A stretch of DNA of 64,000 nucleotides from Paratrimastix pyriformis. Lineage: Eukaryota > Preaxostyla > Paratrimastigidae. A program made the position numbers and the translations under genes. This document shows positions 1-64,000 of the stretch, in pieces. Positions within the stretch are counted from its first letter, which is position 1; every line of letters starts with the position of its first letter. Below the pieces are notes generated by a model. The model made no database searches. It saw only the letters and a list, made by a program, of their open reading frames with translations, and was not told the origin of the DNA. The DNA is taken from assembly GCA_027972325.1 (NCBI GenBank), contig JAPMOS010000005.1, positions 62,001 to 126,000 of the forward strand, in the 5' to 3' direction.

Positions 1-1938
1 CCCAGGGCAGGGCAGGCAGGGCGGGGGGGGGGGGGGGGGGGGGGGGGGCAGTGGGGGTGCGGACCGCTGCTGGAGGGGCGGCTGAGCGCAGAGGAGCTGC
101 AGGACGGAGTTCATGTAGCACCTGCAGGCCCCGTCCAACGCACGGGTGGCGACGTGACAGAGACGATGAGAGCAGTCCCGAAGCGAAGGCGGCAGGAAGA
201 TGAGGGCGGCGGGCGAGAGGGGGCAGAGATGAAGTGGGATGAGGCGGGGCGAGGTGGCGGGGCGAGGTGGGCAGGGCGGACGTGTTGCCCAGGTTGACCA
301 GGCCCGTGTGGCCGGGGCCGTAGAGCGGCTCGAGCCGCTGGCCGCCCTCGAGGACCGAGTCGCTGATGAGCAGGTTCAGGTTCTGCTCCAGCTCCTGCGC
401 CCCCCAAAGTTGTGCCGTGCCCAGCGAAGGGATGGGTGCGGGTCGAAGGGGACGAGCTGCGGGCAGGGGCGGCGGGGCAGGGGCGGCGGGGCAGGGGCGG
501 CGGGGCAGGGGCGGGCAGGGGCGGCGGGGCAGGGGGCGGACCATCTCGGCGATGGAGGCCTCCGTCTTGCGCTGGGTCTGGACGTTGATCCCGCACCGAG
601 CCAGGTGGGCCCCCAGGGCCGGGTCGACGACGAGCTGGTCGCAGGCGTAGCAGTTCACATCTGCGGTCAGCCCGCGGGGGATGCGTCCCGTGAGCCCCCC
701 ACCCTGGCACAGCCCGAGGGAAGGCGGGCGAGGCGGGCAGGGACAGAGGGAAGGGTGGTGGGAGGGTGGGATGATGGAGGCCGAGCGGACCGGCGTGGCC
801 GTCGGGGGTGATGGTGCCCAGCTTGACCACCAGCGGGTGGCCCATCTGGCGGAAGTGCTCCACCGCGTGCTCGTTGCCGCCCGTTCCGTCGTAGTTCCGC
901 CGCCCGCACCTGCAGCAAAACAGCCGCCAGACATGAGGAGCCGTGCGACCGAGCGGCACGGCGGGTGCGGGGAAAGGCGGGCCGGGGCGGACCCGAGATG
1001 GCCGCAGGTGAGGCACAGCCAGAGGTTCTGGTTCAGCTCGCACTCCCCGCAGTGGCTCAGGGCTGCGCCCGCACCCAGCGCCAAGCACCGACGGGGTGAA
1101 TGAGCACGGTGCGGGAGCGCAGTGGGACGGTGGGGGGCGAGGGCGAGGGCGAGGGCGAAGGGGCGCGGCACTGACCCTGGGCGGGCAGGGCCTGCAGATC
1201 GGCCAGCTGCACGAGGCCGGTCGAGTGGCGGCACGGGACCACCTGAGCTTCCCAGCTGGCCACGGCCTGCTTGGTGGTCTCGCTCTGGGCATCCAGCACC
1301 GCCTTGGCCACGACCTCCAGCTGCGGCGGAATATACAAAGGCTGGAACCCGGGCGGACGGACCTCGGGTGTCGAGGGAAGGGGAACAGCCTCACCTGGAC
1401 GGCAGGAGAAGCATTGCATCTGATGGTGAACCACAAGTTCGGTCATATCGTCCGAAAAACCTCCCGGGAGCCCAATAGCAACCCGGTTGGGGGCGCCCTG
1501 ATCCTGTGGCGGCGCATATCGTGAGGAAGGAAGGAGAAGCCAGAGCAACTGTCGACCTTTTTGGGAACGTGCTCGTGGTGAATGTTGAGGAAAACGGCAT
1601 GGTTGCGCTTGTGGGCGTGAAGAATAGCATGTTGCTTGCAGAAACAGTTGAAACATGACATGCACACGTTGATTCCCTCGGGAGAATCCTAGGATCAGAA
1701 TGGAAAGTGTATGATCCAAAAAAAAGCATCTGCGAACCGGATTCTCGTAGCAAAGGACGCACTCGTCTTTGTAGACCGGAGTTCCCTCGAAAGGAGGCAG
1801 CAAATGATGTGCATGTGAGCAAGAAACTGATGCCATCGAGTAGACTGAAAAAACCAAATAGATGATGAGCGGATGGCGACAGGAGAGTGGCGGCGCAGAC
1901 AGCGAATATAGCTGGCAACCCCGGGAGATGGTTCTCAT
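1..1938 (-). CDS. USP5: USP5/UBP14-like ubiquitin C-terminal hydrolase (isopeptidase T), N-terminal part; 3' end outside window
   Basis: Deubiquitinase of the isopeptidase T family, which disassembles free polyubiquitin chains in cytosol and nucleus. Spliced exons match the family in order: the variant zinc finger start ([14 protein letters not shown], then [19 protein letters not shown]), VAIGLPGGF, a WEAQV helix, the ZnF-UBP ([17 protein letters not shown], then [19 protein letters not shown] and [12 protein letters not shown]), and the USP Cys box [15 protein letters not shown]. The catalytic Cys codon lies at 118-120 and an intron splits the box just before it. Intron starts (first base, sense) are near 1736, 1170, 992, 790, 541 and 64: GTTCGC, GTCAGT, then GTCCGC four times. 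The last intron runs off the left edge through a poly-C tract. The start is uncertain: 1938 is the first in-frame Met, 1836 is another, and a short upstream exon is possible. Family assignment is firm. Confidence 0.92.
23..48. repeat. Homopolymer run of 26 G (poly-C in sense)
   Basis: Lies in a USP5 intron. Similar runs of 20-33 occur at 16978-17004, 26413-26444, 40785-40810, 53455-53484, 54508-54538 and 57509-57541, all in introns by my reading. Most are poly-C on the sense strand; 40308-40328 is poly-G in sense. Confidence 0.9.
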
Positions 1939-2333
1939 CCGGCAATGAGCTTCCGGCTCAACTCCCTGCAGTCACCCAAGGGAAAATGATTCCCCTATTC
2001 CTGCCAAAAATCTCTCAGGTTGGACAGGATCTCATCTAAAACGGGAAAAAGGAAATACAATTTCAGTAACCTTGCTCGCTCCATTCTCTCCCGTCCATCA
2101 TCCTCTTCCCTCCATGACCACTTTTTTCTCCCTCCATTCCCTCCTCCTCTGTTTTTTCAGATAAATTTTCACCCGGACCAGCATGTTCATTGTGCCAATC
2201 CCCCCTGCGACTAAGTGGGTCCTTTTTCCGAAGGAAACTCATGACATCTCTGAAGGAAACTCCTGCGAGCGTCCAATCTTTTTCGGGAGCGAAACCGATA
2301 GTTACACAAACGGCTTGATGACTCGAATCCTCC
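1939..2333. other. Intergenic spacer between UFSP2-like and USP5-like genes
   Basis: About 395 bp, richer in A+T than the genes. It must hold the 3' end of the UFSP2-like transcript and the promoter of the USP5-like gene. A pyrimidine-rich stretch lies on the + strand near 2083-2160. I see no TATA box, no AATAAA signal and no convincing coding exon. Confidence 0.5.
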
Positions 2334-61773: not shown

Positions 61774-62209
61774 GAAGTCCATATTTCGAGTCGTCGCGGT
61801 TTTTCTTTTTGGGAGGGGTTTGTCTCGGTCATTGCATTTTTTAAATTATCATGAATTGTTTCGCCCCAGCGAGATATTTGTTGTTCTTTTGTGGACTTGT
61901 ACTCAAAGATCCAGCCGACCTTTTGGCACAGAAACGTGGGATCGAAATCGCCGATAATAATGAAGCCTGGTTGTGGCAAAAACACGGAAAAAACATGCCC
62001 ACTCACTGGGCTGGGGGTGATGAGGCGATGCCTTTTGAGCCGATGAGGTAGCGCGGTGACGAATGCAGCCTCGTGTCTAAATCAGGAACCATGAGAAGGA
62101 ATCGCCACAAAAGATTCTATCCCCAATTCCCTACTCACCTCGAACACGTACTTTTTCAAACCTTCAAACGCTCAGCGCATCCAACACCTGGTAAGATTAG
62201 CAAGCCGTC
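61774..62209. other. AT-rich spacer before the third large gene
   Basis: About 436 bp with T-rich runs (61798-61850), a 66-codon + ORF (61851-62051, MNCFAPARYLLFFCGLVL...) and a 93-codon minus ORF (62006-61725). Neither has recognisable similarity or clear coding character, so I treat the region as 3' UTR of the upstream gene plus promoter of the next. Confidence 0.45.
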
Positions 62210-64000
62210 ATGCGACTTTTGTGGCTTGTTTTTCTTCTTCCTCTCGTTTTGGGCCGCGATTGCGGAACATTAACCGATCGTGCAGGGGAAATTGACCCCT
62301 ACCCATGCTGCGATGACGGATCATGCACATTTGAGGTGAATCCCATCATGACTCCCGACGAAGTCCTTATTTTGTATATGTATTCGTGCTCTGATGAATC
62401 AATTGTTTTTTTGACGCTTGATGATCATCGGGAATATCAGCGGTACCCATTGAACGACACGGCTCCAGTCTATGCTGACTCTAAGGGGTTACAGATCGTT
62501 CTGCAGCCCGCCACATCCTCCAAGACTTGCCATTTTCAATATCACGTGCAGGCAACTTCAGGTCCGCTTTCCCAATTGAAGAGTCACATCAATCACACCC
62601 ACCCCCATCTCTCAGTCAAGGTTTCCGGGAATAACCCAGAGATTGACAGCCCTCCATCGGTGGACATCAATGCCATTGTTCAAGTTCTACCCTTGACCCG
62701 GTTCGTTTCGACAGTCGCCGTGACCGTGATCAACAATGCCACCGGGCAGCGCCAGAACTTCACCACCAGCTTTGCCTCCCGGGAGACCGCCCTTGGTCTG
62801 TTTGGTCATGCTGGCCCCGGGGGGATGCTCATACCGCCTCCCTTTTAGGGTCACTGAAATGGCGGGTCGATCAGACCCTCTACCCCCCGGGTGTGTACAC
62901 CATGGAGTTGACCTCCACCGACGCCTCCCGCCCCTGGCAGGCCAAGTCGGACCTGTTCGAGGTGCGCAAGCGCTCCCTGACCGTGTCCACTTTCGTGAGC
63001 GAGGTCGACACGACCACCAAGAAATGGTCGGCCCGGCACCCCCGGCCAATCCGCCCCCGCCCGCCCACGCACCGCCTCCCGCCCCCACTCACCGCCCGTC
63101 TCACCGGCTGCCCCCGCAGGGGTGAGCTGCCCCTCCTGGGCCACTTGGTCATCCGCACGGCGGGCGTGCCGCTCTCGCTGAGCCATCCCGAGCTGCGCGT
63201 GGAGCTGGTCGACCCGGCCACGGGCGCCGTCCTGTACCTCATCGCCGCCGCCACCAACGACACCGGTCCGCCCAGTGCCCTGCGGCCAGGCGTCCCTACT
63301 GGCAGAGGCGGAGGAGCCGGGGTACCAACCGCTCCGCTGGGGCTCGGGTGGGTGGCGGGGGCGGGGGCGGTTCTCCAGAGTCGAGCAGCGGGCTGGCGTG
63401 GGAGGTGACCGAGCCGGCCGTGGCGGTGGGCCAGGTGGTGGCCGCCCGGGTGAGCTCCGTCGCGGACGGCTCCCTGGTGGCGCTCTCGGCCAACTACACC
63501 GTCCTCGGTCCGTCCTGCCCCCCCCCCCCCCCATCACCCTCCCTCTCCCATCCCCCCATCCGGCTCCCTCGCCGACGCCCGCCCTTCCACCTTCGTCATC
63601 CCCCTTCCTCCTCCTCCTCCTCCTCCTCCTCCTCCTCCTCCTCCTCCTCCTCCTCCTCCTCCTCCTCCTCCTCCTCCTCCTCCTCCTCCTCCTCCTCCCT
63701 CCCCTCCCCTCCCCCCATTCATCCCACCCCAGCGGGCCATCTGCGTGCCCTCTCGACCTGGGCGCAGGGCCTCTACCTGGACTGGGTGGGGCTGCCCCCG
63801 TCGCACTACCCGCGGCTCTCCTTCGCCCTCGAGCACAGCCCCACCCTCCGCTACGAGGCCCTCACCAACGTCACCAACGACGGCAACGAATGTCCGCCTG
63901 CCCTCGCGCTGCCCTTCAGCGGGCCCCCTTCGTCCAGGGACCGCCTCCTGGCCCCCTCGGCCTCCCTCCCCAAACGCTGACCGCAGCGGCGCGTCTCCCT
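62210..64000 (+). CDS. N-terminal part of a third large secreted protein; continues past the window
   Basis: Starts MRLLWLVFLLPLVLG, a short strong signal peptide, then a Cys-rich head (CGTLTDRAGEIDPYPCCDDG, SCTFEV) and beta-rich sequence with NxT sites. Introns: 62562-62615 (GTCCGC...CTCAG, 54 bases, also readable in frame), 62796-62848 (GTCTGT...TTTTAG, 53 bases, joining ETALG in phase to SLKWRVDQTLYPPGVYTMEL), 63027-63119 (GTCGGC), 63266 on (GTCCGC), near 63508 (GTCCGT, carrying a long TCC repeat) and 63892 on (GTCCGC). The next exon probably starts near 63986 after CCGCAG. The GC content rises steeply after the second intron. No family recognised beyond a secreted, glycosylated beta-rich protein; a paralogue of its neighbours is likely. 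Confidence 0.65.
63605..63698. repeat. (TCC)n array in an intron of the third gene
   Basis: About 30 TCC units on the sense strand, upstream of a CCCCAG 3' splice site near 63732. Confidence 0.93.

Follow-up and report, generated by a model that had tools for sequence, protein, structure and literature searches.

The 64,000-nucleotide stretch analyzed here (contig C441, positions 62001–126000), referred to below as the window, is part of the nuclear genome of Paratrimastix pyriformis, a free-living flagellate of the Preaxostyla within the Metamonada. A partial USP5 gene lies on the minus strand at its left end, and GC content is lower (0.60) in the initial 4 kb of the window than in the remainder. 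A preliminary description of the window had reported introns that begin with GTCCGC-type hexamers instead of GTRAGT at 14 named places, as well as a giant minus-strand gene, which was split by our gene model. We describe the 5' splice sites (donors) of the window and of other loci in this genome (56.06 Mb in 495 contigs, some stretches being masked) together with the genes for U1, the small nuclear RNA (snRNA) that pairs with the 5' splice site first, before the site is passed to U6. The donors and the 5' end of U1 appear to have shifted together.

Hexamers of the kind described were present at all 14 places, with GTCAGT starting at 1175 (described as near 1170) and GTTCGC at 1737 (described as near 1736). 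Nine of these were used as donors by the gene model with learned splice signals, and eight by the model without them; the unused places were 1737, 3159, 24582, 62562, and 63892, with no gene being placed around the first two. Individual sites are listed in Table 1.

Table 1. USP5 gene and donor hexamers of the window (positions in the window)
Feature	Position	Strand	Basis
Partial USP5 gene, 7 modelled exons	65..1419	-	Query residues 23-225 align with 3ihp_A, E 3.1e-54
USP5 donor GTCCGC	987..992	-	Uniquely best by homology to USP5 3ihp_A
USP5 donor GTCCGC	785..790	-	Uniquely best by homology
USP5 donor GTCCGC	536..541	-	Uniquely best by homology
USP5 donor GTCCGC, intron 6, absent from the preliminary description	276..281	-	Uniquely best by homology
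USP5 donor GTCAGT, uncertain	1170..1175	-	Gene model; homology favours GTGCCG at 1171 (485 vs 469)
USP5 donor GTCCGC close to window edge	59..64	-	Gene model alone
Probable USP5 donor GTTCGC	1732..1737	-	Read by eye; unused by gene model
Possible donor GTCTGC, gene earlier called UFSP2 (label unconfirmed)	3154..3159	-	Hexamer present
Donor GTCCGC	39981..39986	-	Gene model with and without learned signals
Donor GTCCGC	47902..47907	-	Gene model with and without learned signals
Donor GTCCGC	57005..57010	+	Gene model with and without learned signals
Donor GTCCGC	63266..63271	+	Gene model with and without learned signals
GTCCGC hexamer, unused by gene model	24582	-	Hexamer present
GTCCGC hexamers, unused by gene model	62562 and 63892	+	Hexamer present

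Donor sites of the predicted introns

Introns were predicted with a self-trained, two-strand hidden Markov gene model whose prior knowledge was limited to GT and AG, so that GT-AG ends were imposed on it. Training made use first of 21 sequences (264 kb) and then of 46 sequences (342 kb), with loci L020, L023–L026, and L028, which are repeats of U1 loci, and L052 having been excluded beforehand. The intron sample covers 342 kb of a partly masked genome of 56 Mb, and less GC-rich genes are under-sampled in it. The model predicted 567 introns, of which 11 lay too close to an end for the hexamer to be read and 489 were complete GT-AG introns free of N.

In the window, the learned model placed C at position +3 in 116 of 125 complete introns and G at +5 in 110, with none of them showing GTRAG. 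The corresponding counts at loci outside the window were 281, 249, and 2 of 364 introns, giving totals of 397, 359, and 2 among the 489. The preliminary description had named an ordinary genome-wide GTRAGT logo as grounds for its own rejection, and the sample shows no such logo. Frequencies after learning were 0.64 for G at –1, 0.80 for C at +3, 0.57 for C and 0.27 for T at +4, 0.72 for G at +5, and 0.53 for C and 0.27 for T at +6. The pattern was apparent before any splice signal had been learned: the 586 introns then predicted from the 342 kb had C at +3 with a frequency of 0.60, A at +3 with 0.07, and G at +5 with 0.56. Control training with the false donors GA, CT, TG, CA, and AT yielded only 0.32–0.39 for C at +3 and 0.27–0.30 for G at +5. 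The 5' splice-site consensus of the predicted GT-AG introns of P. pyriformis is thus a shifted one, (A)(A)G/GT C Y G Y, with the slash marking the exon end.

All four GC classes of sequence manifested the donor pattern, which strengthened with GC content (C at +3 from 0.68 to 0.87). At +3, C was favored over T (odds ratio for T, 0.27; p 1.8e-17), and G was found in 41 of 489 introns. C was the most frequent base at +4 (279/489), followed by T (129/489), with A being rare (27/489). The intron background is itself C-rich (C 0.51 at +9 to +20), and the frequencies at +4 and +6 are close to it, with U being mildly raised over C at +6 (odds ratio 1.50, p 0.0006). The common donors do not match U12-type RTATCC. 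Among candidate branch-point words, CTCAC was commonest 30–49 bases and CTGAC 30–39 bases before the 3' end, and the most enriched 5-mers in that region were G-rich. Raw hexamer counts prove nothing here, since GTCCGC is common in the window in any case (46 copies on the plus strand and 65 on the minus strand); counts of hexamers after AGGT relative to control prefixes were likewise uninformative in sequence so GC-rich.

Donor positions were also examined by homology for 23 introns in USP5, APC2, a DEAD-box helicase (DDX), a Sen1-like helicase, and Prp8. Around each modelled end, all GT-AG pairs that preserved the frame and lay no more than 60 bases away were scored against a solved homologue; the positions of the two Prp8 introns were set manually, and introns at gene-model ends were skipped. 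The introns were drawn from the learned model, and their choice is therefore not independent of it. The modelled donor was uniquely best for 13 introns, had no rival for 2, was tied for 4, and was beaten for 4. The 13 uniquely best donors all had C at +3, and 12 of them had G at +5. Both Prp8 junctions fall within closely conserved blocks. A PDB search with a protein taken for FRA10AC1 returned no match.

Deposited proteins provided a further view of the donors; the annotation of this genome is described as having been performed with Augustus and with intron hints from RNA sequencing (RNA-seq) and PASA (PMC10703272). PAPYR_3127, whose deposited name begins with anaphase-promoting complex, and PAPYR_583, whose final part was left unmapped, were mapped exactly to the DNA. 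A GT-AG split was possible at all 13 of their junctions; position +3 was C in 11 and T in the other 2, never A or G, and +5 was G in 10. The 11 donors of PAPYR_3127 are, in order, GTCATT, GTTCGT, GTCTCC, GTCCCC, GTCCGC, GTCCGC, GTCTGC, GTCGGC, GTCCGC, GTCCGC, and GTCAGC, and those of PAPYR_583 are GTTTGA and GTCTGC. PAPYR_583 was identical to the product of locus L038 over 692 residues (100%), as was PAPYR_1570 to that of locus L032 over 79 residues (100%). The statement in the preliminary description that variants of the site retain G at +5 and, in most cases, C at +3 is therefore upheld alike by the gene model with and without learned signals, by homology, and by the deposited proteins.

Genes for U1 and other snRNAs

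The Rfam U1 covariance model detected eight U1 genes in the genome, and a DNA search with the U1 body returned the same eight. In every one of them the 5' end reads AUACAGACCUU instead of AUACUUACCUG, and ACAGACCU stands in place of the usual U1 end ACUUACCU. The start ATACAGACCTTG is shared by all eight, several of which differ from each other elsewhere. An exact search of the genome for the canonical pattern ATACTTACCTG gave no match, whereas the same letters read backwards gave 57. The genes fit Rfam RF00003 from end to end (positions 1–166, E 1.1e-14), with no gap at the 5' end of the alignment, and the RNA folds better than shuffled sequences (z –3.4). Compared with canonical U1 and its target GURAGU, the register and residues A1–C4, A7, C8, C9, and U10 are the same, whereas U5U6 is replaced by A5G6 and G11 by U11. 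We therefore describe the eight genes, on the basis of their sequences, as encoding a variant U1, the 5' end of the RNA being expected to read AUACAGACC.

Of the explanations put forward in the preliminary description, a changed U1 5' end is thus the one that was encountered; U6 is not changed, with AUACAGAGA being retained in each U6 gene found. The four U6 genes (L009–L012) all contain ACAGAGA, seven U5 genes all retain GCCUUUUAC, and GTAGTA is retained in the one U2 copy read out of 10 matches. The sequence CCCATAA is located approximately 60 bases before U1 (8/8), 67 before U6 (4/4), and 53 before U5 (7/7), as well as 59 bases before the one U2 gene fetched, and is probably an snRNA promoter element of the P. 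pyriformis lineage.

With regard to protein partners, a zf-U1 match and a match to the NH2-terminus of human U1C proved to be the same gene, which encodes zf-U1 together with a WW-like stretch and is not U1C; reading it by eye, we take it to be WBP4/FBP21. Stem-loop II of U1 (L001–L008) has no clear UUGCACUC, the motif bound by U1A, in its sequence. An exon match to PF05971, the METTL16 family, is present at locus L051. This match and the ACAGAGA of U6 coexist with the rarity of A at +4, unlike the reported link between METTL16 and A at +4 (PMC10581693).

Agreement between U1 and the donors, and competing explanations

We place at about 0.9 the probability that donors of P. pyriformis are mostly GTCYGY in place of GTRAGT and that the 5' end of U1 has changed to match them. 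On the basis of the established register, G6 would pair with C+3, A5 with U+4, C4 with G+5, A3 with U+6, and U11 with A–3. Relative to the 8,211 remaining GTs in these genes, the 520 learned donors were enriched for partners that fit A3, C4, A5, G6, C9, U10, and U11, corresponding to the actual U1. In the set obtained without learned signals (571 donors and 8,643 GTs), positions 4, 6, 9, 10, and 11 agreed. Complementarity between the U1 5' end and the donors thus appears to hold at positions 3–6 and 9–11 in the learned set, albeit weakly at position 5. The firm pairs would be C+3:G6 and G+5:C4, whereas +4 and +6 are probably loose pyrimidine positions that base composition has pushed toward C. 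The loss of U1 pairing at +3 and +4 that the preliminary description proposed does not apply to +3, where C can pair with G6; it holds in part for +4, where pairing is restored for U and not for the commoner C.

Pairing energies were calculated as our own fixed-register sum over stacks and are approximate. For the 13 donors of the deposited proteins, the approximate mean was –5.0 kcal/mol with canonical U1 and –7.8 kcal/mol with the real one. Among the 256 variants of U1 positions 3–6, canonical UU with the rest of U1 unchanged ranked 163 for separation of learned donors and 149 for the no-signal set.

Several observations weigh against a matched change of donors and U1. Positions 1 and 2 of U1 do not fit the learned donors, and in the no-signal set position 5 prefers G before A and position 3 has the order T, G, A. 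The real U1 ranks 18th of the 256 variants with the learned donors and 33rd in the no-signal set, so that 17 and 32 variants, respectively, separate better, and G5 occurs in seven (learned) and all eight (no-signal) of the best eight variants. The base found most often at +4 is C, which has no partner in A5 and which G5 would fit better; the excess of U over C at +4 is mild (odds ratio 1.36, p 0.007) and falls to 0.91 within the window. In the homology analysis, a rival donor outscored the modelled one at USP5 intron 2, APC2 introns 1 and 3, and DDX intron 4. The best U1 copy scores 60.2 bits, below the Rfam gathering score of 69.5, which is a curation threshold and not a biological trait, and U1 folded alone is predicted to have its 5' end paired with the region after stem-loop III. 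Searches with a profile and with the human NH2-terminus gave no true U1C, and a search for the U1-70K NH2-terminus gave no match, as was also the case for control genomes, so that absence of the latter is not shown.

An unlikely alternative is that GC mutation pressure combined with weak use of U1 allowed the donors to drift toward C, with U6 and U5 recognizing the site and the U1 5' end drifting free of constraint. The GC-rich genome and C-rich introns are consistent with such drift, as is the resemblance of +4 and +6 to that background, and U6 alone could read C+3 and G+5. Drift does not, however, account for the preference for C over T, and the low count of G, at +3. U1 has also retained C4, A7, C8, C9, and U10, and the same new 5' end is found in eight copies several of which differ elsewhere, a uniformity that points to constraint.

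It is less probable still that the eight genes do not encode a working U1 and that a normal U1 is missing from the assembly. The number of contigs, their masked stretches, and the score below the gathering cut-off leave some room for this explanation, which is opposed by the presence of eight copies matched over model positions 1–166, by the upstream element that they have in common with U6, U5, and U2 genes, and by the poorer pairing of canonical U1 with the donors of the deposited proteins. Least probable of all is an artefactual donor pattern produced by gene modelling or by codon bias at the ends of exons. The set of learned donors does involve some circularity, and another donor scored higher in 4 of the 23 introns tested and equally in 4. 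The pattern nevertheless precedes signal learning, arises with GT alone among the six dinucleotides forced on the model, and is seen in deposited gene models built with RNA-seq hints; the conserved blocks around both Prp8 junctions also speak against an artefact.

With a joint change of donors and U1 as the preferred explanation, each U1 gene found would have changed from AUACUUACCUG to AUACAGACCUU in step with the donors. These donor bases could likewise be bound by the U6 ACAGA box, with G44 pairing with C+3. In human B complexes, C42 of U6 is reported to pair with G+5, whereas +4 is met by the N6-methyladenosine m6A43, and G44 faces +3 but is not stably paired at this stage (PMC9803359); C at +3 would therefore suit G6 of U1 and G44 of U6 alike. 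The seven bases AUACAGA are common to U1 and U6, suggesting that both could read the 5' splice site in the same way. A tentative extension, which we consider less probable than not, is that U1 was rewritten to carry the U6 ACAGA box, with both RNAs using AUACAGA and a GUCUGU-type site being fully complementary to both. Given that only two bases needed to change, such identity would arise by chance in approximately 1 of 16 cases. If it was selected, the usual conflict between U1 and U6 over the preferred bases at +3 and +4 would be removed. Modification of A5 of U1, such as to inosine, may explain the frequent C at +4.

Comparison with other lineages and further observations

Published donors are available for two other metamonads, Streblomastix and Giardia, and a published U1 for Giardia. 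Donors of the oxymonad Streblomastix have A, U, and G at +3 to +5 (21 introns; PMC1501061), and ACUUAC is retained in the U1 of Giardia, where a U-U mismatch to the donor results (PMC3510501). On these grounds, the change in U1 and donors is probably derived within the P. pyriformis lineage from a GUAUGU-like site. Replacement of U5 by A would have restored pairing at +4, where U had previously faced U, and that of U6 by G would have accompanied the change from A to C at +3, with the order of these steps being our inference; later GC pressure may then have turned many U residues at +4 and +6 into C. A tree of Prp8 without a starred set, in which P. pyriformis is drawn adjoining Streblomastix (92/58), did not suffice to place the organism, which was identified from the deposited proteins.

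A lineage-wide change in donor consensus has likewise been described for Saccharomycotina, where +4 shifted from A to U (PMC10581693). That shift accompanied loss of METTL16, and ACUUACC is reported not to vary across the 236 genomes, of yeasts and outgroups, that yielded a U1 (PMC10581693). In P. pyriformis, by contrast, U1 is changed, the genome contains a PF05971 match, and the shift lies mainly at +3. The same yeast study names adenosine at U1 position 5 as a possibility, not found among the genomes it treats (PMC10581693). Most introns of Fritillaria borealis also deviate from the usual 5' splice site, whereas its U1 5' end is described as strictly preserved, with the authors pointing to U2AF duplicates and m6A (PMC13326754). 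One U1 copy of the diplonemid S. specki has an altered 5' end as well, with a stretch of C (PMC12621601); unlike the situation in P. pyriformis, it is reported to coexist with normal U1, both being judged comparable on the canonical site, and not to replace it (PMC12621601). The AUACUUACCUG consensus has been reported in three picoalgae, two of which have many GC-AG introns (PMC3033335).

We found no earlier report of the change in P. pyriformis U1 or donors in the open-access literature, subscription papers being outside the scope of the search, and the word 'snRNA' does not occur in the main text of the genome paper (PMC10703272). The 5' end of U1 is regarded as all but fixed and hardly varies in other eukaryotes studied. 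In P. pyriformis, every U1 gene found carries a natural replacement, and donors that match it occur among the 489 introns sampled and, when this sample is scaled to the genome, probably in tens of thousands. The species offers a natural compensatory test of pairing between U1 and the 5' splice site at +3 and +4, in an RNA from which the two U residues present as pseudouridines in human and yeast U1 have been lost, and it allows one to study how one splice-site code gives way to another within a lineage. Software for gene finding or splice prediction that presumes GTRAGT would perform poorly on the P. pyriformis genome.

G at –1 and G at +5 co-occur in the 489 predicted introns (odds ratio 3.6, p 1.2e-9), with no seesaw between them. 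The two are reported to compensate each other in other species (PMC9803359), and false introns in the set could be another cause of the co-occurrence. Introns at many loci carry simple and minisatellite repeats, GATGAT arrays among them, and the USP5 intron at positions 460–541 of the window contains CCCCTGCCCCGCCG-like repeat units. Finally, a large lineage-specific protein family was encountered at L038:4964-9394 and on contig C112, with 78 matches, all of them in P. pyriformis; many members lie on one 1.37-Mb contig, and some are named F-box or leucine-rich repeat proteins.

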